From assembly GCA_030746535.1 (NCBI GenBank), contig JASLML010000014.1, forward strand, positions 1-34,912: DNA of 34,912 nt, given 5' to 3'. Source of the stretch: Fidelibacterota bacterium (GTDB lineage: Bacteria; Fidelibacterota; Marinisomatia; Marinisomatales; TCS55). The notes below the pieces were generated by a model. It saw nothing but the letters and a program-made list of their open reading frames with translations. It made no database searches and was not told the DNA's origin. Made by a program: the position numbers and the translations under genes. Position 1 is the first letter of the stretch. The number at the start of each line of letters is the position of its first letter. Of the stretch, positions 12,688 through 26,163 are shown one piece after another.

Positions 12688-13503
12688 CTAGTTCGTTTCT
12701 GTCCACCGCAAATCGTAGGTGCGGTATTCCACTTCCTGTTTTTCATCAGACAACGGCACGATCACTTTAAACTGTGTTGTTGCGCCCGGTTCTAATGCGG
12801 TATCGGTGATAACCCCGGAAGAATATGATGTTTCAGTCCCGGTAACAAATGAGGAGTCTTTAGCAGCTAAATCGGTAGTTTTTGCCCAAAGATTTGCAAT
12901 AACACGAACAAAATCAGCTCTGGATTTTCCAGTATTTTTTATCATTCCTGTAATTTCTTCCCGGTCTGGGAAGGCATTAATAAAAGGTTCACCTACGATC
13001 TCTATTTTGGCACTTAAAGGTACGGCCTCCGTAATGTGAACCACTTTGTTTGTATCAATCTTCAAACGACCTAAGCTGGTTTGAAGAATAATAAAATTAA
13101 CATTCTCCTCGATCAATTCTCCGAATATGACCGTTCCGTTGGTTAGCTCCACCCTGTGCTGCATTTGGGGGATTTTGATTAGATTTAGCAGCTCCTTGTC
13201 AAGGGTAGGCATTCCTTGTGACTGCTGATAAAATTTGACCATTTTTTTCAAAGAGTCGATTTCATTCTCAAGTTTATCGATTCGCGGCTCAAATTCGAAA
13301 AATGACTCTCCTGTATCCAGCAGCGCTTCTTTGGCATCTTCTATACGAAGCTGCGGTATGGGAGCATCGGTTTCTTGTTCATCCGGAATGGATTCCTGAA
13401 CCGTTATTTCGTCCATCTTCTGCGTTTCGGCTGTTGCTGTGTCAGCACTTTCCTGGGCAAGGATTCTGCCTGCCAATAATAACAATAGAATAACTTTCAT
13501 CAT
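12688..13503 (-). CDS. Secreted protein with coiled coil, Sm-like module and FxLYD-like domain, function unknown
   Basis: The 271-residue protein starts with a signal peptide (VILLLLLAGRILAQ). An acidic, Thr/Glu-rich linker follows to about residue 60. A coiled coil of about 25 residues comes next (IDKLENEIDSLKKMVKFYQQ). A small beta module (residues about 117-158) reads VELTNGTVIFGELIEENVNF then LGRLKIDTNKVVHI, similar in layout to Sm-like 'G.v..G.i....' domains. The C-terminal half has ITGMIKNTGKSRADFVRVIANLW and LEPGATTQFKVIVP, typical of FxLYD-type domains in periplasmic proteins. It overlaps the upstream HEAT lipoprotein gene by ATGA. A scaffold role at the cell envelope is a guess only. 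Confidence 0.75.
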   Translation of the reverse strand: MMKVILLLLLAGRILAQESADTATAETQKMDEITVQESIPDEQETDAPIPQLRIEDAKEALLDTGESFFEFEPRIDKLENEIDSLKKMVKFYQQSQGMPTLDKELLNLIKIPQMQHRVELTNGTVIFGELIEENVNFIILQTSLGRLKIDTNKVVHITEAVPLSAKIEIVGEPFINAFPDREEITGMIKNTGKSRADFVRVIANLWAKTTDLAAKDSSFVTGTETSYSSGVITDTALEPGATTQFKVIVPLSDEKQEVEYRTYDLRWTETN

Positions 13504-14627
13504 TGCGAAACTCCGGTGTGAGCTTCGAAAGCCATGCGGCGTAAAGTTTGTTGGTGTGCTTCCAATTCACCCATTGCATTCAAAGATTCAAGGATAGCAT
13601 TCCTGTAAATATAATTGTTGGGCGACTGCAGGATGTTTAGCAATTGGGGAATAGATTCTTTGTCTCCGAAATCGCCAATCTTTTGGATAGCTTTCATACG
13701 AAGCTGAGGGGAATAATCCTCATTCAATGCAATTTCTGTTACCGCCAATCGTACTTCAGCATCGTTGAATTCACCGAGAGCATCGAGCATGGTATTTAGC
13801 ATGCTGAAATATTGCTTCTTGCCTGTATTGTAAGTCTGTAACAAGGCCAGTATGAGGTTTTCCTCCTTTACGCCGCCAAGCGTATTGAAGGCAAAATCCT
13901 TGACTTCCATGTTAGTGTTGGGGTCTCCGAGAAGTTCGGCAAATGCGCTTGCCACTTCCATCGGTTGTTTTTTTCCAAGGATTTCCACAGCGCGGTTTCT
14001 AATTCCTACATTTACTTCGGGATCCTTTGAAATAGACAGCAAAATGGGCACAACTTCTGCCGTACCCAACGCTCCCAGAGTTTCCGTCATCAATTTCTCT
14101 GTCCTGTTCAAGTTCGCTTTACTTATTTCGTACAGTTCCAACAGCGCATACACCTGATCTTTTGTCCTCACTTTATTCAGATTCCGGATCAGTGTTATGT
14201 GCAGTTCGTTTGTTTTCTCTTCAACTTGGTGCATAGCTCGTACCATGGCATCTGCCGCTTTAGGATTATCTTTAAATGTCGCTAGTAATTCAATGGATGT
14301 GATCATCAGTGATAAATCCATCGCTTCCGCATCGGCAACAGTTTGAGCAATGGCGTTAAGGGCAGTAGGATGGTGTGTTTCTGCGAGTGCTTTTCCCGCC
14401 GCTATCCTGAAATCAAAGGGCTGGTTTGAGTCATGATAAATACTAATCAATTCTTCCAGTGCCTGAATTTTACCTTCCTGATACGCCATACGCAGTCTTT
14501 CCACCTCATCGAATCCTGTATCAGCGGTTACCTCATCTTTTTTTCCGAACAGCCCTTTAATCATGGAGCATCCGCTGAATGCAAGGAAACTACCTATCAG
14601 CATGGCGACGATGATATGTTTACGCAT
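13500..14627 (-). CDS. HEAT-repeat lipoprotein
   Basis: The frame is open from 14699, but the ATG at 14627 (MRKHIIVAML...) gives a lipoprotein signal ending in the lipobox FSGC; an ATG two codons earlier (14633) is also possible. The mature part of about 355 residues is almost all paired helices in HEAT/PBS-lyase-like style. Examples are AFNTLGGVKEENLILALLQT, LGALGTAEVVPILLSI, RNRAVEILGKKQPMEVASAF and KAIQKIGDFGDKESIPQLLN. Such arrays bind other proteins. The start lies inside the end of lpxH, and the stop overlaps the FxLYD-like protein, so the three genes should be co-translated. The function is unknown; an envelope scaffold is plausible. Confidence 0.82.
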   Translation of the reverse strand: MRKHIIVAMLIGSFLAFSGCSMIKGLFGKKDEVTADTGFDEVERLRMAYQEGKIQALEELISIYHDSNQPFDFRIAAGKALAETHHPTALNAIAQTVADAEAMDLSLMITSIELLATFKDNPKAADAMVRAMHQVEEKTNELHITLIRNLNKVRTKDQVYALLELYEISKANLNRTEKLMTETLGALGTAEVVPILLSISKDPEVNVGIRNRAVEILGKKQPMEVASAFAELLGDPNTNMEVKDFAFNTLGGVKEENLILALLQTYNTGKKQYFSMLNTMLDALGEFNDAEVRLAVTEIALNEDYSPQLRMKAIQKIGDFGDKESIPQLLNILQSPNNYIYRNAILESLNAMGELEAHQQTLRRMAFEAHTGVSQ

Positions 14628-15360
14628 TGCCATCCCAGATTTGAATCGACATTTCATTTCCGTCGAATTTACCGTATGTGAAAAAACTAAGCCAATCACC
14701 GAGTATCACCAGTTTGCCCGGCCCGGTATTTTCGATCACAGCCTGATGGTAATGTCCAGAAATGACGAAATCTGCACCGTTTTCTGTCTGTTTAGCTGCA
14801 AATATCTTCAAATCGTCCAGAATTTTTCTGTTATAACTTTCGTCGTGATCATAATGCTTACCTCGTTTGGATATCCAGTTGCCAAACCTATACCCAATGT
14901 TAGGATGAACCCACCTGTACAGCCAAATAAAGGGTTTGCTCTGAATAACTTTTTTTAACATCCTGTAACCGTGGTCCCAAGACAAATGCCCATCTCCATG
15001 CGTAATATAAAATGATTTGCCATTTATTTGAATGGTTGTGTCTTCAAAATAGGTTCGTGTGGTGATTGTATCAGTAATAAAATCCATGACCCAGTAATCG
15101 TGGTTTCCCAGCACATAATGAATTTCGACTCCGGCATTCTTCAAAAGGGTTACTTCGTGGAAAAAATCAAAATATATTTTTGGAATAACATCTCTGTATT
15201 CAAAATAGAAATCAAAGATATCACCAACAATAAACAGCGTTCCGCCAGTTGAGCGGATATGCCGCATAAAACCGAATAATTTTTCGCGGCGCTGCTGTTC
15301 CTGTTCCGACATATTGAGCATCAGATGGGTGTCAGAAATAAAATAGACGGGTAAGTCCAT
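14620..15360 (-). CDS. lpxH: UDP-2,3-diacylglucosamine diphosphatase-like metallophosphoesterase (LpxH family)
   Basis: This 246-residue protein is a calcineurin-like phosphoesterase with all five metal blocks: FISDTHL, VGDIFDFYFEY, LGNHDYWV, THGDGHLSWD and ISGHYHQAVI. Length, the YRWVHPNIGYRFGNWISKRGK insertion and the order of motifs match LpxH of the Bacteroidetes group, which cleaves UDP-diacylglucosamine to lipid X in lipid A synthesis. This fits the Kdo and Lpt genes nearby. Related phosphoesterases of unknown substrate exist, so the substrate is inferred. It begins the minus-strand operon lpxH, HEAT lipoprotein, FxLYD-like protein. Confidence 0.85.
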   Translation of the reverse strand: MDLPVYFISDTHLMLNMSEQEQQRREKLFGFMRHIRSTGGTLFIVGDIFDFYFEYRDVIPKIYFDFFHEVTLLKNAGVEIHYVLGNHDYWVMDFITDTITTRTYFEDTTIQINGKSFYITHGDGHLSWDHGYRMLKKVIQSKPFIWLYRWVHPNIGYRFGNWISKRGKHYDHDESYNRKILDDLKIFAAKQTENGADFVISGHYHQAVIENTGPGKLVILGDWLSFFTYGKFDGNEMSIQIWDGNA

Positions 15361-15516: not shown

Positions 15517-18500
15517 ATGATGAAAAAATACGTAAGTACATCTGTGTTTTGTTTGCTGATTCAAACCGGTTTTGCGCAGTCGTTCGGCCAAAACAAAGTT
15601 CAATATGAATCATTCAACTGGTCATTCATATCCTCCACCCATTTTGATATATATTATTATCAGAATGAAAAACAGCTTGCAGAATTCACTGCGGAAGAGG
15701 CCGAAAAGGCATACGAACAGATTTCCAAGCATTTGCGTTGGACACTCAAGAACCGTGTCTCAATAATCATATATTTATCTCACAACGATTTTCAGCAGAG
15801 CAATGTTACACTGGAGTATATGGTGGAAGGCGTCGGAGGTGTAACGGAACTGTTCAAAAACAGGGTCGTCATTCCTTTTGAGGGCAATTATGAGCAGTTC
15901 CGACATGTTATCCATCATGAACTTGTGCATGCAATGATTAACGATATGATATACGGCGGATCACTTCAAAATATGGTTTCGCGCCAAGTTAGAACGCGGC
16001 TCCCGTTGTGGGCGAATGAAGGATTATCGGAATATTTGTCAATGAATTGGGATACGGAAGCTGACATGATTTTACGTGACCTTGCGATCCATGAATATAT
16101 TCCCGCCGTTGACGAATTGGACTATTTTCTCGCATACAAAGGAGGCCAGTCTGTTTGGAGATTCATTGCACAGAAATACGGACGTGAAAAAATCGGTGAA
16201 ATTTTTCGGGAAATTCAAATCACCCAGTCTACTGAAAAAGGTTTTGAGCGCGTTTTGGGAATGAATTTTGAGGAACTTACCAAACAATGGCACAAATACC
16301 TGAAGAAGGAATATTGGCCCGATGTTAAGGATAGGGATGAAATTGAAGATATTTCCAAACGGCTGACAGATCATGAAAAGGAAAAGAATTTCATGAATCT
16401 TTCACCTGCATTATCTCCAGACGGAAGCCGCATCGCCGTACTGAGCGATCGGCTGGGATACACCGATATATATTTGATGGATGCAATTGACGGCACAGAA
16501 ATAAAACGGCTTGTAAAGGGAAACAGATCGCTGGATTTTGAGGAATTAAAATTCCTTCAGCCCGGAATTTCTTGGGCGCCCGACAATGAAAGGATTGTAT
16601 TCGCTGCAAAATCCGGCAATCAGGATGCGCTGTATATAATGGATGTAAATACACTAAAGCGTGAAAAAATACCCTTTGATCTCGATGGCATCTTCTCTGC
16701 AGCGTGGAACCCGGTAAAGGATCAAATTGCTTTTGTAGGTAATCAAAAATCAGCTTGTGATCTGTATCTTTACGATTTGGACTCCAAATCTTTGACAAAT
16801 CTGACAAATGACATGTTTGCGGATCTTGAACCTTCTTGGAACGATGATGGAACAGAGCTGGCATTTGTATCATCCAGAGGCTACCAATACCAAAAAGACC
16901 GCACTGGAATGATCAATTCGCAATTCAACATGGCAGAGCATGATTACAGCCAGCGAGACATTTATACAATCAATATAGCTTCCCGATCTATTTCAAGGAT
17001 CACCAATACTGAACATTTAGAAAATGATCCTATCTGGTCTAATACATCAAAAAACCTGTTTTATACCTCGGACAAAAATGGTGTTTGGAATCTGGTTTCT
17101 CACAATCTGAAAACCGGCAAGGCCAAAACAGTAACCAATGTTCTTACCGGCATTTTTCAGCCAAGCATTTCCTCAAACGGCGAATTATTGGCTTTTTCCG
17201 GATATACGGACAGGGGATGGGATGTGTTTACACTGACGAAACCGGATGAACTTGAGCATCAGGAAGTTCCTATTACAGGATTTATTGCAACTGCTGACAC
17301 TGAAGATAATCTTGTCACCGATTTACGCATGGATAAGAAACGGTCCATGACTGGTGGTATTAATGATTTTTCGCGTCACATATTTGCTCCTGATTATGTG
17401 CATTATAATCAGGATAATTATGAAGCGGAAGAGGATCCTTTCTTTGGCGTGGACAGCCTGCGTACGGATGATGGCGGCTATATGCCCCAGCAGTACAAAA
17501 CAAAATTTTCACTTGATATCGCAACCGGCTATCCCTCTTACAACACCATGTTCGGCGCTTCGGGAATGGCTATGTTTGCCTTTAGCGATATTATGGGAGA
17601 TCATCAGATAATCATTGGTACAGAATTGGTTCTTACGCTAAAGGACAGCGATTATTATATTAGCTATGCCTATTTGAAAAACCGCACTAATTTGTATCTA
17701 TCGGGGTTTCATATTGCAAATCTATTTGATGCTGGAATCCGATATTATCCTGATACGGGATTTCTAAATCAACTTGTAGGCAGGCTAAGGAATTACGGAT
17801 TGTCCGGATATGTTTCCAGGCCTTTTAACAGGTTTAACAGGCTTGAAGGCGGAGCATCGTACAGTGTAATTAATTATGATTTGTTTGAACTTGATTCATG
17901 GACAAATACTACCACCTTAGATACTTCCTTCGGCTTTTCGCTGCTTACACCAAACTTCGGCTGGGTTTACGATAATTCAATCAATGGATTCTACGGTCCG
18001 TCAGATGGATTCAGATCCAATACATCTGTCAGGTTCAGCCCTGGAATCGGCACCAAAAAACTTGAATTCACAACACTGTCGGTTGATCTGCGCAAATACC
18101 AGCGGATTTCACGAAGAGTGACTCTAGCCGGTAGGTTTACGCTGGGGGCGAGCGTAGGCAATGATCCTCAGAAATTTTATTTGGGGGGAGATGCGCTTTG
18201 GTTTGCAGGTTTAGGGGAAACGAATGGCAGAAAGGATCAAACCCAGTGGCAGCAGGATCTACTTGTGGATACAAGCAGAACATTTCTTGAAGATATATAT
18301 TTGTCGGAATATGTATTTCCGCTGCGGGGAGCCAGGTTTGCTGAGAGATATGGGAAAAATGTTGCCCTTGCAAACATTGAGCTGAGATTTCCCTTCATCG
18401 ATTATATTGCTTTGGGTACCGGCGGTATTTTTGGCAATATTCACGGTCATTTATTTCTGGATATAGGTGCTGCCTGGGATAACATGGATGAATTTGAAGA

Positions 18501-18690
18501 TCACTCCAAACTTCAGCAAAAATACGGGCAAAACATTCCTGATACTTTTTCACCTGTGTTTTCAACATTTGGCTTTGGAGTTAAAATTCCAATTCTCTAT
18601 TTATTCAGAATTGATGCTGCATGGGACTTAGAACCGGGGTTTACCACTTCGCGCCCTCAATGGATCTTTTCGATGGGATTTGACTGGTAG
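15517..18690 (+). CDS. Outer-membrane protein: peptidase MA-like zinc domain, TolB-like beta-propeller and BamA/D15-like barrel
   Basis: The 1057-residue protein starts with a signal peptide (cut near GFAQ, residue 21). Residues about 35-250 form a zinc peptidase domain: THFDIYYYQN, then HHELVHAM with the HExxH at 134-138, and LPLWANEGLSEYL with the third ligand E168. This is the pattern of the peptidase MA/gluzincin family. Residues about 290-590 hold WD40/TolB-like repeats (LSPDGSRIAVLSD, SWAPDNERIVFAA, SWNDDGTELAFVS, SSNGELLAFSG). The last 380 or so residues are beta-rich and resemble bacterial surface antigen barrels (LRGARFAERYGKN, ALANIELRFPFID), ending in Trp as outer-membrane proteins do. 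It may be an outer-membrane protease or processing factor. Substrate and surface orientation are unknown. Confidence 0.85.
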   Translation: MMKKYVSTSVFCLLIQTGFAQSFGQNKVQYESFNWSFISSTHFDIYYYQNEKQLAEFTAEEAEKAYEQISKHLRWTLKNRVSIIIYLSHNDFQQSNVTLEYMVEGVGGVTELFKNRVVIPFEGNYEQFRHVIHHELVHAMINDMIYGGSLQNMVSRQVRTRLPLWANEGLSEYLSMNWDTEADMILRDLAIHEYIPAVDELDYFLAYKGGQSVWRFIAQKYGREKIGEIFREIQITQSTEKGFERVLGMNFEELTKQWHKYLKKEYWPDVKDRDEIEDISKRLTDHEKEKNFMNLSPALSPDGSRIAVLSDRLGYTDIYLMDAIDGTEIKRLVKGNRSLDFEELKFLQPGISWAPDNERIVFAAKSGNQDALYIMDVNTLKREKIPFDLDGIFSAAWNPVKDQIAFVGNQKSACDLYLYDLDSKSLTNLTNDMFADLEPSWNDDGTELAFVSSRGYQYQKDRTGMINSQFNMAEHDYSQRDIYTINIASRSISRITNTEHLENDPIWSNTSKNLFYTSDKNGVWNLVSHNLKTGKAKTVTNVLTGIFQPSISSNGELLAFSGYTDRGWDVFTLTKPDELEHQEVPITGFIATADTEDNLVTDLRMDKKRSMTGGINDFSRHIFAPDYVHYNQDNYEAEEDPFFGVDSLRTDDGGYMPQQYKTKFSLDIATGYPSYNTMFGASGMAMFAFSDIMGDHQIIIGTELVLTLKDSDYYISYAYLKNRTNLYLSGFHIANLFDAGIRYYPDTGFLNQLVGRLRNYGLSGYVSRPFNRFNRLEGGASYSVINYDLFELDSWTNTTTLDTSFGFSLLTPNFGWVYDNSINGFYGPSDGFRSNTSVRFSPGIGTKKLEFTTLSVDLRKYQRISRRVTLAGRFTLGASVGNDPQKFYLGGDALWFAGLGETNGRKDQTQWQQDLLVDTSRTFLEDIYLSEYVFPLRGARFAERYGKNVALANIELRFPFIDYIALGTGGIFGNIHGHLFLDIGAAWDNMDEFEDHSKLQQKYGQNIPDTFSPVFSTFGFGVKIPILYLFRIDAAWDLEPGFTTSRPQWIFSMGFDW

Positions 18691-18727: not shown

Positions 18728-19872
<1,145 letters not shown>

Positions 19873-19873
<1 letters not shown>

Positions 19874-20331
19874 TGTTGCTGAAAGTTGGATCACAAGCTC
19901 CTGATTTTTCTTTAACAGAATCATCTGGTGAAGAGATAAGCCTTGCCGATTTTACAGGAAAAAAGATATTACTATGGTTTTTCCCTAAAGCAAGTACACC
20001 AGGCTGAACAATCGAAGGTGAAGGATTCCGTGACGAATTCAAACAATTTTATAAGAACAATGTTCTTATTATTGGCGTGAGCAAGGATTCGCCGAAAGCG
20101 CAACAGACTTTTAAGGAAAAAAATAATTTCCCCTTTTTTCTTGCCAGCGATCCATCAACTGAAATGATTCAAGCCTATAAAGCATGGGGAAAGAAAAAAC
20201 TGTATGGACGCGAATATATGGGAATAAGCCGCATGTCATACTTAATTGATGAAAAAGGAATGGTTGAAAAGGTTTACGAAAAAGTGAATGTTAAATCTCA
20301 CGCACAGGATGTTCTGCATGATTTATGCTGA
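19873..20331 (+). CDS. Selenocysteine-containing peroxiredoxin, BCP/PrxQ type (TGA at codon 45 read as Sec)
   Basis: Read through one in-frame TGA at 20005-20007, this gives 152 residues, the normal BCP/PrxQ length. The part before it (VGSQAPDFSLTESSGE, LLWFFPKASTPG) and the part after it (TIEGEGFRDEF, VLIIGVSKDSP, NFPFFLASDPST, RMSYLIDEKG) are both clearly peroxiredoxin. The TGA stands exactly where the peroxidatic Cys belongs: P38-x3-T42-xx-U45. Other genes here (gatC, kdsC, argF) end in TGA, so TGA is not a general sense codon. The usual resolving Cys five residues later is E50; the only Cys is the last residue, C152. A hairpin of bacterial SECIS form follows. AAAGG lies six bases before the ATG, which overlaps the tgt stop. 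It should reduce peroxides in the cytoplasm. A sequencing error or pseudogene is the alternative, but there is no other lesion. Confidence 0.88.
20005..20040 (+). promoter_or_regulatory. Sec TGA codon with predicted bacterial SECIS hairpin
   Basis: After the TGA (20005-20007), GGATTC at 20023-20028 pairs with GAATTC at 20035-20040: six pairs, one of them G-U, around the six-base loop CGTGAC (20029-20034). The loop begins 22 bases after the TGA and its second base is G. This meets the published form of bacterial SECIS elements: short upper stem, loop of 3-14 bases with a G among the first two, 16-37 bases after the UGA. The hairpin lies inside the coding frame, as bacterial SECIS elements do. 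Pairing was found by eye; folding energy was not computed. Confidence 0.7.
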
Positions 20332-20340
20332 ATGGAATAA

Positions 20341-21282: not shown

Positions 21283-22203
21283 CTAGTCATTTTTCCAGTC
21301 CTGATAAAACCATCCATTATGAAAATATTTATCATTCATATTGTTGTCAAGATAGCCCATCATGACAGAATGTCCCTCAATCTGCAATTTATTGCTTTCT
21401 TCTTTTATTCCTGTCATATGCACTGCTTTTTTCCCGATCGATAATACCGCAGTATTCTCTGGCACGATACATATTTCTCTTGGTTTCAATTTATGGAAAA
21501 ATTGAGGTCCCTCTAGCAATTGGATATCTTTCCCGAAGTGGCAGGTTGAGGCATTGCTAGAAAATGATCCCCCAGTATACAGCGGCAAAAGCAATTGAAG
21601 TACAACCCAAGCGGTGGAGTTCGGCTTCAATTCAGAAAAATGTACTGTTTTATCATCGAGACTTAATGCTTTTTCAACGGCATAAGTATTCACTAAAATA
21701 TTATAATGGCTTAAGCGGACACTTTTATCAGGCAGGCAAAAAATCAATGCTTCATCACTTAAAAGGGGAATGTAGGTTGGCTCAAATGCATCCGGCTGTC
21801 CGGATAGACAATCGGGGAAAGGACTTTCTAAAATGCTGAAAGAAGCATTTGTTATTTTTGCTGCTTCTTCCGATGTGGATTCATCAGCAATCACCAGCGA
21901 TGCCCCGAGCGTCCAAACGGCAAATGCAAGCAATTCAGCATCGGGAAAGGAAAGAGGCCCAAGGGATACACGCTCTTTCGGATTCACACCTTGGCCGCTG
22001 AGCCAGTTGGCAGTCCGTTTGACTTTGTTGTGAAAATCCATTCGCGTCCATCCTTCATCCGTATAAAGCATTTTATCGCTGTGCTTTACAATCATGCCAT
22101 CGATAAGAGAAGCAATATTTGGATAAGGAACCATGTATTCAATAGGTTCTACATCGCCGAAACACTGCGCTTTGTAGATTTTATCTTTGAGGGATTGATC
22201 CAT
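21283..22203 (-). CDS. Shortened, degenerate AMP-binding (acyl-CoA synthetase-like) protein
   Basis: The 306-residue protein follows the layout of an ANL-superfamily enzyme (usual length above 500): SLIDGMIVKHSDKMLYTDEG, WTRMDFHNKVKRTANWLSGQGV, KERVSLGPLSFPDAELLAFAVWTLGA, then DEALIFCLPDKSVRLSHYNILVN. In that last stretch (about 150-172) the normal ATP-binding loop TSGTTGxPKG is missing while the flanking 'LSHxNil' is kept. It ends with GYLDNNMNDKYFHNGWFYQDW, matching the usual 'GY...p..t...f.dGWf.TGD', but the TGD is lost and the C-terminal lid domain is absent. The frame is intact, so it is not simply a decaying pseudogene. Adenylation activity is unlikely. It sits in the tyrosine operon; it may be a non-catalytic ligand-binding protein. 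Confidence 0.7.
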   Translation of the reverse strand: MDQSLKDKIYKAQCFGDVEPIEYMVPYPNIASLIDGMIVKHSDKMLYTDEGWTRMDFHNKVKRTANWLSGQGVNPKERVSLGPLSFPDAELLAFAVWTLGASLVIADESTSEEAAKITNASFSILESPFPDCLSGQPDAFEPTYIPLLSDEALIFCLPDKSVRLSHYNILVNTYAVEKALSLDDKTVHFSELKPNSTAWVVLQLLLPLYTGGSFSSNASTCHFGKDIQLLEGPQFFHKLKPREICIVPENTAVLSIGKKAVHMTGIKEESNKLQIEGHSVMMGYLDNNMNDKYFHNGWFYQDWKND

Positions 22204-22888: not shown

Positions 22889-24070
22889 TTATTCCAGAGA
22901 CAGCAAATCTTTATAATCGCCGCCGTCCAGCCATGAAAGGGGGTATTTCGGATCATCAATGTCTTTGCAGGCTACGGTTTTTTTAAGCGGGTGGAACGTG
23001 TCGACCATTACGGCAAGTTCGGTGGTTTCTTTTTCTCCGATACTCGCTTCTGTTTTTCCCGGCTGCGGGCCGTGCGGAGGTCCGGCAGGATGAAAGGTGA
23101 TGGATTCTTCCTCCATTCCTTTTCTGCTCATGAAATTGCCTTCCACATAAAAGATGACTTCTTCCGAATCCACATTACTGTGGGCATACGGCGCTGGAAT
23201 TGCTTCCGGATGGTAGTCAAATAATCTTGGTACAAAAGAGCATACTACAAGTCCGGGAGCCTGAAACGTCTGATGAACAGGGGGCGGTTGGTGAACTCGT
23301 CCGGTGATTGGTTCAAAGTCTCCGATATTGAAAATCCAGGGGAAGTAAAAGCCGTCCCAGCCAACCACATCAAACGGATGATTGGCATAAATATAAGACT
23401 GTGTTCCGCCCTGAACTTTTGTCAGAATAGTAAAATCACCAGTTTCGTCTTTGGCATCCTGAAGTTCTGGTGTGCGAATGTCCCGTTCGCAAAATGGCGA
23501 ATGTTCCATCAATTGGCCGTGTTCATTCCGGTACCTCCGTGGCGTTTCCATGGGGCCGGCGGTTTCAATAATAAGAAACCGACATTCGCTTTCCATGGAC
23601 ATTTTCCAAATCACGCCCTTGGGGATGACAATATAATCACCTTTTTCAAATGTCAGATCCCCGAGATACGAATGGAATGTTCCTGATCCTATGTGAACAA
23701 AAATGGTTTCATCCGCATGCGAATTGCGGTAAAAATAATCCATGGATTCTGCTGCATGCGATTTCAACAGTGTTACATCGGAATTGAAAAGAAGCGGGAT
23801 TCTGCTTGAAATCGGATCGCCGGCGGATTTTATTTTCCCGGAACGGAAGTGGCAGTGGCGGTGTTCGCCGGACCATTCTTCAAAAGAAAACGGAGTAAAC
23901 TTCCCAACTTTTTTCACTTGGGTCGGCGGATGAATATGATAAAGATTGGAATAAATGTTCGAAAATCCCTCACGGCTCATATGCTGTTCTTTATAAAGCG
24001 AACCGTCAGGCTGTTTGAATTGCGTGTGGCGTTTTGCCGGAATGTTTCCCTGTTTTACATAAAAAGGCAT
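22889..24070 (-). CDS. hmgA: Homogentisate 1,2-dioxygenase
   Basis: The 393-residue cupin-fold enzyme opens the ring of homogentisate to maleylacetoacetate with Fe(II). The iron ligands known from the human enzyme can be matched: the His in PYAHSNVDSEEV, the Glu six residues later, and the second His in PAGPPHGPQPG. VEGNFMSRKGMEEESITFHP is typical of the bacterial form. The N-terminal cupin holds GDYIVIPKGVIWKM. At 393 residues it is shorter than the proteobacterial and human enzymes (about 430-445), as seen in a second HGD subgroup. Flanking genes for HPPD and FAH agree with the call. Confidence 0.91.
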   Translation of the reverse strand: MPFYVKQGNIPAKRHTQFKQPDGSLYKEQHMSREGFSNIYSNLYHIHPPTQVKKVGKFTPFSFEEWSGEHRHCHFRSGKIKSAGDPISSRIPLLFNSDVTLLKSHAAESMDYFYRNSHADETIFVHIGSGTFHSYLGDLTFEKGDYIVIPKGVIWKMSMESECRFLIIETAGPMETPRRYRNEHGQLMEHSPFCERDIRTPELQDAKDETGDFTILTKVQGGTQSYIYANHPFDVVGWDGFYFPWIFNIGDFEPITGRVHQPPPVHQTFQAPGLVVCSFVPRLFDYHPEAIPAPYAHSNVDSEEVIFYVEGNFMSRKGMEEESITFHPAGPPHGPQPGKTEASIGEKETTELAVMVDTFHPLKKTVACKDIDDPKYPLSWLDGGDYKDLLSLE

Positions 24071-25057
24071 TTAGACCACCTTGTTTTCCAAAATTCCAAG
24101 CCGCTCGATTTCTAATGTTACCGTATCGCCTTTTTGAATCCATCCGCCCGTGTTCTCCGGCTTCAGCTCCATGATGCATCCCGTACCTACCGTCCCGGAA
24201 CCGAGATATTCTCCAGCAACAAGGGCAGTGTTTTTACTCGCCCTTTCGATGATCTGTCCCCAGGAAAAATACATATCGTTAGCATTGCCGTCCGAAAGCT
24301 GTTCACCGTTTCTGTGTAAAGTCATCCGTAATTGCAGGTTTCCGTCATCATCCCAGGCATCGGCCAACTCGTCCGGTGTTACCATATACGGACCAAAACA
24401 TGATCCGAAATCTTTCCCCTTGGCCGGACCCATATTGAGAACCATTTCTTCTTTTTGAAAATCCCGCGCAGACCAGTCGTTCAAAATGGTATATCCGCCG
24501 ATAACGGTATCTGCATCGTCAGCGGAAATGTCTTTTCCGCCGTTCGCGATAATGATCGCCAGCTCAAGCTCAAAATCAAGCGCATTACTGCCTTCTGGAT
24601 AGGGAAAATCTTCCCCATGACCAAACAGATTTACGGGATTTGAATAATAGAAAACTGGAAACTCGTACCAGCTAGGATGCATGTCCAGCCCGCGCCCCTT
24701 CCTTGCAGCTTTTACATGCTGTTCAAAAACGTAAAAATCCCTGAATACCGCAGGGTTAGGGACGGGCGGAAGAAGGCTCACATCTGCGATGGGCTTTGCT
24801 ATCAGGTTGCCGCCGGCGTTGAGCGCATCAAGTCCGGAATCCGGAAGAGACTGATCAAGTTTTTGCAATAGCGGAAGCATGGCATTCCATTGTTCAAGGC
24901 ACGCCTTTAAAGAAGACGGAATCGATAGGAAATTTGAATTTCCCTCGGATTCATTCATATAAATTGCTGCGCGCAGGACGTCCACAATTAGACCATCCCT
25001 GACAATCCCAAATCTATGCGAGTCATATCCTTTTTCTGTATATGTTGCGAATTTCAT
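24071..25057 (-). CDS. Fumarylacetoacetate hydrolase family protein
   Basis: The 328-residue protein has the FAH C-terminal fold: PVFYYSNPVNLFGHGEDFPYP, the metal-binding ALDFELELAIIIANGG with two Glu ligands, GYTILNDWSARDFQKEEM with the Asp ligand, GPAKGKDFGSCFGPYMV, and GTGCIMELKPENTGGWIQKGDTV. It should cut fumarylacetoacetate (or, if the route lacks isomerisation, maleylacetoacetate) to acetoacetate plus the dicarboxylate. Its stop is directly followed by the homogentisate dioxygenase gene, and its start touches the HPPD gene. No maleylacetoacetate isomerase gene was seen in the operon, so this enzyme may accept maleylacetoacetate directly, or the isomerase is elsewhere. Confidence 0.9.
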   Translation of the reverse strand: MKFATYTEKGYDSHRFGIVRDGLIVDVLRAAIYMNESEGNSNFLSIPSSLKACLEQWNAMLPLLQKLDQSLPDSGLDALNAGGNLIAKPIADVSLLPPVPNPAVFRDFYVFEQHVKAARKGRGLDMHPSWYEFPVFYYSNPVNLFGHGEDFPYPEGSNALDFELELAIIIANGGKDISADDADTVIGGYTILNDWSARDFQKEEMVLNMGPAKGKDFGSCFGPYMVTPDELADAWDDDGNLQLRMTLHRNGEQLSDGNANDMYFSWGQIIERASKNTALVAGEYLGSGTVGTGCIMELKPENTGGWIQKGDTVTLEIERLGILENKVV

Positions 25058-26163
25058 CAGCCTCCTACCGGTTCAAGATTTCCGCGGGCTTCCTGTTCCC
25101 GCTCAATGGATTCAAACAGAGCTTTGAAATTGCCCTTACCAAAACTTCTGGACCCTTTCCTTTGGATGACTTCGTAAAACAAGGTTGGCCTGTCCTGAAT
25201 TGGTTTTGTAAAAATTTGAAGCATATACCCGTTTTCATCCTTATCAACAAGGATTCCCAACTCTGCCAAAGTTTGGATATCTTCATCTATATCTCCGATT
25301 CTGTCTGTTAAATCGGTATAATAAGATTTCGGGACCTGAAGAAATTCAATTCCGTTATTTCTCATTTTGGAAACAGTATTAATGATGTCTTTGGTTGACA
25401 TGGCAATATGCTGAATTCCGGCCGTGTGGTAATAATCAATAAATTCCTGAATCTGTGATTTTCGTTTTCCATCTGCCGGCTCGTTGATCGGCATTTTAAT
25501 TTTTTCATTCTCGCTCGCCATTACGATGGATCGAAGAGCGGAATATTCCGTATTTATATCTTTATCATCTACGGACCAGTACCGGTGAAAATCGAAGATT
25601 TTTTCATACCAATTGCAGACTTCCTGCATTTTACCATCCGGCATATTCCCGACAACATGATCCATGTGCACAAGCCCGGACGGATCAGCAATTTGTTCTT
25701 CTGTTTCATAAACCTGATAACCGGGGAGAAAGACGCCCTGGTATCCGTCCCGCTGTACAAAGGTGTGAGTGGTATCACCAAATGTTTTAATCGTGGAAAT
25801 TATTGCCTGTCCCCGATCGTCTTCGATGAGGCAAGGTTCCAATATGCTTTCCGCTCCTCTTTCCGTGGTTTCCTTCCATGCCTGTTCGGCGTTATTAACG
25901 GAAAATGAAATATCCCTAACGCCGTCCCCGTGATATTCAACATGCCTTCCGATAGGCGAATCCTTTTCGAGAGCCGATGTCAGGACAAACCTGATTTTAT
26001 TCTGTTTCAAAACATAACTGACTCGGTCACGGGACCCCGTCTCCAGCCCTCGGTAGGCAATAGGCTGAAAGCCCAAAGCAGTCCTGTAAAAATGAGCCGC
26101 CTGTTTTGCATTGCTGACATACAGTTCGCAATGATCAAATCCGTTTATGGTATAAGGTTTCAT
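25057..26163 (-). CDS. hppD: 4-hydroxyphenylpyruvate dioxygenase
   Basis: The 368-residue protein is a pair of VOC domains. The N-terminal one starts at FDHCELYVSNAKQAAHFYRT. The catalytic C-terminal one holds the Fe(II) triad: His in VHMDHVVGNM, His in GIQHIAMST, and Glu in TLFYEVIQRKGSR. The end (GSRSFGKGNFKALFESIEREQ) is the usual lid helix region of HPPD. It converts 4-hydroxyphenylpyruvate to homogentisate, the substrate of the enzyme two genes downstream. The relative HmaS (hydroxymandelate synthase) is similar, but the neighbours favour HPPD. Confidence 0.94.
   Translation of the reverse strand: MKPYTINGFDHCELYVSNAKQAAHFYRTALGFQPIAYRGLETGSRDRVSYVLKQNKIRFVLTSALEKDSPIGRHVEYHGDGVRDISFSVNNAEQAWKETTERGAESILEPCLIEDDRGQAIISTIKTFGDTTHTFVQRDGYQGVFLPGYQVYETEEQIADPSGLVHMDHVVGNMPDGKMQEVCNWYEKIFDFHRYWSVDDKDINTEYSALRSIVMASENEKIKMPINEPADGKRKSQIQEFIDYYHTAGIQHIAMSTKDIINTVSKMRNNGIEFLQVPKSYYTDLTDRIGDIDEDIQTLAELGILVDKDENGYMLQIFTKPIQDRPTLFYEVIQRKGSRSFGKGNFKALFESIEREQEARGNLEPVGG

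Follow-up and report, generated by a model that had tools for sequence, protein, structure and literature searches.

What could a single protein do that carries a zinc peptidase, a β-propeller, and an outer-membrane barrel in one chain? The question is raised by a gene in the 34,912-nucleotide stretch of Fidelibacterota DNA analyzed here (the window). The frame runs from an ATG start to a TAG stop codon and encodes 1057 amino acids (Table 1). All three domains exceed the curated Pfam cut-offs, and AlphaFold2 modeled the full chain from an alignment of 68 orthologs with a mean pLDDT of 82.7 and a pTM of 0.79; we consider the peptidase-propeller-barrel anatomy almost certain. A separate observation concerns Gln21 (window position 15577), which directly follows the predicted signal-peptide cut (A followed by QSFGQ), is nearly invariant in the orthologs, and resembles the Q-rule of Bacteroidetes, which is reported not to extend to the FCB group as a whole (PMC5837995).

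Table 1. The gene, the parts of its product, and neighboring genes (window positions, unless a related locus is named).
Feature	Position	Strand	Basis
Peptidase-propeller-barrel gene, 1057 aa	15517..18690	+	ORF, Pfam, AlphaFold
Signal peptide, residues 1-20, likely cut between GFA and QSFGQ	15517..15576	+	Inferred from sequence; pLDDT low at residues 1-24
Gluzincin peptidase domain, residues 26-280	15592..16356	+	Pfam PF13485, AlphaFold, Foldseek M1/M9
HELVH, residues 134-138; putative zinc ligands H134 and H138, putative general base E135	15916..15930	+	Motif, invariant in 68/68
E168, putative third zinc ligand in WxxEG	16018..16020	+	Motif, invariant in 68/68
Six-bladed TolB-like propeller, residues 286-590	16372..17286	+	Pfam PD40, TIGR02800, strand pattern, Foldseek
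Linker, residues 591-660, weakly conserved, low confidence	17287..17496	+	AlphaFold, alignment
16-strand Omp85 barrel, residues 661-1057, C-terminal Trp	17497..18687	+	Pfam Omp85, AlphaFold, Foldseek
PLRG, residues 935-938, likely counterpart of Omp85 loop-6 (V/I)RG(F/Y)	18319..18330	+	P935, R937, G938 invariant; assignment inferred
FLDIG, residues 980-984, likely counterpart of Omp85 (F/G)xDxG	18454..18468	+	D982 invariant; assignment inferred
lpxH-like lipid A phosphodiesterase, divergent neighbor	14620..15360	-	NCBIfam PRK05340, 1.2e-21, below its cut-off
HEAT-repeat putative lipoprotein, conserved neighbor	13500..14699	-	Pfam HEAT_2
Secreted protein of unknown family, conserved neighbor	12688..13503	-	No family match
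tgt, downstream neighbor	18740..19873	+	TIGR00430, 1.7e-147
mlaE (mlaF in some) directly downstream of the ortholog	L104:9092-10701, L112:9047-10647; also L106, L111, L113		

The N-terminal domain matches Peptidase_MA_2 (PF13485) over residues 68-263 (E 2e-11; 44.5 bits against a cut-off of 32.4), and the same profile is matched by 61 of 61 homologs. HELVH is the sole HExxH of the chain. The pairing of HExxH with W..EG occurs in all 80 related loci compared, the best 80 of at least 551 relatives, with HELVH in each of them; in 68 aligned full-length orthologs H134, E135, H138, E168, W165, and Y207 are invariant, as are E111, K114, N115, and R116 just ahead of the active-site helix. Chance does not account for motifs present in 80 of these 80 best loci with ligands invariant in 68 of 68 orthologs. 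Across the same 68 sequences the peptidase is also the most conserved domain, with a mean column identity of 0.75 (residues 21-280) compared to 0.62 for the propeller, 0.57 for the barrel, and 0.39 for the linker. Together with the invariant residues of the putative zinc site, this would argue for selection on activity; such conservation would not be expected of a decayed, inactive peptidase domain.

A PDB search with the peptidase sequence profile found no chain above chance, after which structure comparison was used. Predicted in isolation (pLDDT 80.5), the domain matches M1 aminopeptidases, M9 collagenases, and lugdulysin (Foldseek, best E 2.2e-5). A fold match of this kind without a sequence-level match in the PDB suggests a gluzincin lacking a close solved relative, and the HExxH with its downstream Glu, the profile, and the fold together place the 1057-residue protein in clan MA(E). 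The M48 profile (PF01435) does not match this protein and yields one match among the 61 homologs, at E 0.0059.

Pfam detects PD40 in three stretches from residue 292 (E 1.7e-20), and the strands of the AlphaFold model suggest six blades across residues 294-574. The top NCBIfam profile for the protein is TolB (TIGR02800), and Foldseek likewise matches the propeller to TolB (E about 1e-11). The profile score of 145.1 bits, spread over three stretches, lies below the cut-off of 343.15 bits; thus, the resemblance to TolB is confined to the propeller, and the protein itself, which also has a membrane barrel and a peptidase, is not a TolB.

The Omp85 profile matches residues 757-1055 (E 1.8e-10; 41.3 bits against a cut-off of 24). 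In the AlphaFold model, sixteen strands are predicted across residues 665-1053, with strands 11 and 12 separated by a long insertion that probably corresponds to Omp85 loop 6. The best Foldseek match of the barrel is BamA (E. coli BamA barrel, E 6.7e-14). LRGA and FLDIG stand at the expected positions, with R937, G938, and D982 invariant, although LRGA differs from the canonical loop-6 motif; from known motifs, we take PLRG and FLDIG to be the loop-6 and (F/G)xDxG counterparts. POTRA domains, by which BamA and TamA handle their clients, have no Pfam match in the 1057-residue protein, and a weakly conserved linker precedes its barrel. The predicted C-terminal 16-strand Omp85-type barrel places the protein in the Omp85 superfamily. 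A propeller ahead of an Omp85 barrel with no POTRA corresponds to the WD40-Omp85 type, a comparison made with the description of that subfamily, identity with its sequence cluster being unproven.

These results bear out most of what the earlier note, made from sequence alone, had claimed: an HExxH at 134-138 with E168 as likely third ligand (HELVH and W165-A-N-E168-G are found there and are invariant), TolB-like repeats after the peptidase, and a D15/BamA-like barrel ending in Trp (the chain terminates in MGFDW). The structure prediction that it had called for returned the sixteen predicted barrel strands and a zinc-site domain resembling M1/M9 gluzincins. The domain order, the zinc ligands including the third, and a barrel, here with 16 strands, are all supported; that this barrel anchors the peptidase is the best reading of the architecture, and the enzyme would then face the periplasm. 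The note also proposed that such a peptidase could cut proteins at the outer membrane or help to assemble or release them, possibilities that are weighed below.

The earlier note had also taken this to be one odd protein, and in this respect it has to be revised. The relatives retrieved in a contig scan that can be named (among the best 80 of at least 551) are metagenome-assembled genomes of Candidatus Neomarinimicrobiota (Marinimicrobia, SAR406) and Calditrichota. With a clear ortholog defined by E<1e-100, one is present in 95 of 99 mostly near-complete Neomarinimicrobiota genomes, and some match is found in all 99: among the four others, G111 carries an ortholog-like C-terminal fragment (44% identity), and G045, G088, and G110 give weaker matches. 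In the phylum of a Calditrichota genome, 38 of 40 genomes carry the ortholog. It is also retained, mostly as the sole match, by the streamlined 0.8-1.0 Mb genomes of genus g22, and in these the Omp85 profile detects just the ortholog and BamA-sized proteins; the BamA-sized Omp85 protein that coexists with the ortholog has about 793-805 residues. Two paralogs lie in the same genome as the window, L002 (238-3339, minus strand, 1033 aa, HEFVH) and L003 (493-3474, plus strand, 993 aa, HELQH). Both keep the peptidase-propeller-barrel order with HExxH and WxxEG intact, although in L002 Pfam detects the PD40 part alone and the remaining domains were read from the sequence. This shared architecture defines a paralog family, of which the gene analyzed here is the conserved core member. 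One ortholog from a 1.0 Mb genome (G075:C1:72017-74914) contains an in-frame TGA, which may reflect decay, sequencing error, or recoding.

The surroundings of the gene are conserved as well. Among the best 80 of at least 551 loci, some of which end at contig edges, lpxH lies divergently upstream in 59, the HEAT-repeat putative lipoprotein is a neighbor in 55, the secreted orphan protein in 51, and tgt follows downstream in 58. The lipoprotein and the orphan protein, which travel with lpxH across the phylum, are possible partners of the 1057-residue protein. Six streamlined genomes share an arrangement much like that of the window, in which the ortholog comes after pyrG-kdsA-kdsC-lptC-lptB-rpoN-argF, faces lpxH, and is followed by tgt. 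In several Calditrichota loci, the position held by lpxH in Neomarinimicrobiota is occupied by a divergent gene for a DUF4296 putative lipoprotein (L104:5437-5817 and L112:5494-5871, minus strand). In 11 of 13 relatives' genomes, among them three from the genus of the window (one of these 85% complete), no M48 peptidase (PF01435) was found; in the other 2, an M48 match occurs alongside the ortholog. LptD is present in 13 of 13 (PF19838, LptD_2). Its apparent absence by PF04453 (0 of 13) was dismissed, since that profile also misses a Bacteroides control and PF19838 finds all 13.

Two further features of the window were recorded in passing. At 19876-20337 (plus strand), a Bcp-type peroxiredoxin frame, overlooked by standard ORF calling, has an in-frame TGA at the position of the catalytic Cys (STPG-U-T). 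The TGA is kept in most related loci and replaced by Cys in others, which makes a selenocysteine peroxiredoxin likely; Rfam gave no match at the gathering threshold. The gene at 21283-22203 (minus strand), next to a tyrosine/homogentisate degradation cluster (22889-26163), encodes a 306-residue protein whose match to the AMP-binding family (PF00501) is weak, partial, and under the cut-off; it occurs in 24 of the best 80 of at least 551 loci.

Both termini of Omp85 barrels are periplasmic. Given this topology and the precedent of PlpD, an Omp85 protein shown to retain its enzyme domain in the periplasm (PMC11116518), we expect the peptidase and propeller to lie on the periplasmic side. In E. 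coli, the periplasmic zinc peptidase BepA either promotes LptD or degrades it on the BAM complex (PMC8423444; PMC13067283). We hypothesize that the 1057-residue protein is a periplasm-facing, barrel-anchored peptidase exerting BepA-like quality control over outer-membrane and LPS-export proteins, and assign this reading a probability of roughly 45%. The Omp85-type 16-strand barrel would anchor the propeller and the zinc peptidase at the periplasmic face of the outer membrane and keep the enzyme near the assembly sites of barrels and of the LPS translocon; the propeller would dock envelope proteins or clients, and the peptidase would remove or process stalled clients such as LptD, a task that the soluble M48 enzyme BepA carries out in E. 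coli. A barrel-tethered peptidase, an LPS neighborhood, the lack of M48 matches in 11 of 13 genomes, and LptD in all 13 are most simply united by a peptidase that resides in the outer membrane for quality control or maturation of its proteins and those of LPS export; the LPS and lipid gene context and the missing M48 peptidases speak more for such control within the envelope than for release to the exterior. The periplasmic topology, the catalytic activity, the clients, and a part for the barrel in assembly are inferred. Against this reading count the lack of POTRA domains, the two genomes in which an M48 match coexists, and a neighborhood that also fits lipid homeostasis directly. With an M1/M9-like rather than an M48 fold, any likeness to BepA would be one of role only.

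The fit with lipid homeostasis leads to a possible, though doubtful, alternative in which the barrel and propeller would partner or regulate phospholipid or LPS traffic and the peptidase would control a lipid-transport protein, similar in spirit to PlpD, whose deletion shifts phospholipid levels (PMC11116518). The divergent lpxH is consistent with it, and so is mlaE (PF02405, E about 1e-72): in 16 retrieved loci, drawn from the two phyla, it comes next after the ortholog, and the two genes mostly overlap or lie no more than about 30 bp apart. This pair occurs in Calditrichota and deeper Neomarinimicrobiota branches, with mlaF next in some, and the ortholog adjoins mlaE in 11 of 21 MlaE-bearing Neomarinimicrobiota genomes. 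However, mlaE is missing downstream in 88 loci with enough downstream sequence, and in the window's order the gene persists, although MlaE was found in none of 20 and MlaD in none of 8 genomes searched. The gene is thus independent of the MCE/Mla system, and obligate partnership with it as the sole role was rejected: the linkage to lipid transport spans two phyla yet is not required. A quite unlikely reading is a proteolytically active fused assembly factor, whose barrel itself would insert or fold outer-membrane proteins, while the propeller would play the part of BamB and the peptidase would dispose of whatever failed. The BamA-like barrel fold and the invariant RG and FxDxG residues speak for it, as does the comparison of WD40-Omp85 proteins to a BamA-BamB fusion by Heinz and Lithgow (PMC4104836), but POTRA domains are lacking, a separate BamA-sized protein is present, and the PlpD barrel serves as an anchor without a lateral gate (PMC11116518). 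It is unlikely, too, that the ideas combine in a self-contained fold-or-degrade machine, in which a BamA-type barrel would engage nascent barrels, a BamB/TolB-like propeller would serve for docking, and the zinc peptidase would destroy what fails. Such a machine would take the place, in both phyla, of the BepA-type peptidases that associate with BAM, and would tie the control of outer-membrane proteins to the supply of LPS and phospholipid.

We regard as very unlikely a structural protein or Tol-Pal substitute, in which the propeller would bind Pal-like lipoproteins and the peptidase would be secondary. TolB is the top profile and a strong fold match, none of 14 genomes searched has a TolB above cut-off, and in streamlined genomes the ortholog is the best TolB-like match; nevertheless, the peptidase rather than the propeller is most conserved, and G114 combines the ortholog with a nearly full-scoring TolB (337.5 against 343.15 bits). 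Most improbable is a protease that would digest external proteins, either displayed at the surface or released, with the barrel as its secretion pore; this was first suggested for PlpD and was one of the options for the 'Metallo' Omp85 proteins (PMC4104836). The PlpD enzyme domain was shown to be periplasmic (PMC11116518), the propeller and peptidase would have to traverse a 16-strand barrel, and the fact that streamlined genomes keep the gene next to LPS genes suggests housekeeping.

Compared with known systems, the protein supposed here to be a quality-control peptidase comes closest in layout to the uncharacterized WD40-Omp85 proteins defined by Heinz and Lithgow in 2014, which share the TolB-like propeller before the barrel and the lack of POTRA, but for which the text of that study names no zinc peptidase ahead of the propeller; their 'Metallo' group belongs to PF00149, a family other than PF13485 (PMC4104836). 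PlpD likewise anchors a periplasmic enzyme by an Omp85 barrel and is tied to envelope homeostasis, but it is a lipase with POTRA and no propeller (PMC11116518). BepA shares the HExxH zinc site and the outer-membrane and LPS-export action proposed here, and differs in being a soluble periplasmic M48 enzyme (PMC8423444). The barrel fold and the combination of barrel and propeller are common to BamA/BamB, whereas the present protein is a single chain without POTRA and with a peptidase added. In the open-access literature we found no paper describing the peptidase-propeller-barrel architecture, and word searches of recent Bacteroidota BAM papers located a named propeller subunit and no peptidase subunit. 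The interest of the protein lies in its near-universality and its context, not in a new fold.

Widely distributed in the ocean, the Neomarinimicrobiota (SAR406) are almost entirely uncultured, and their envelope biology is essentially unstudied. A near-universal gene that 1-Mb genomes keep beside LPS genes, and whose putative zinc site is invariant, ranks high as a candidate for an important envelope enzyme missing from the standard model organisms, and its product offers a concrete target that can be tested by expression in E. coli or, provided that it carries the gene, in the cultured strain Fidelibacter multiformis (PMC11652737). If the quality-control reading is true, proteolytic quality control and an Omp85 barrel would be joined in one molecule, and the known range of the Omp85 superfamily would extend past assembly and secretion, with PlpD as the first step in that direction.
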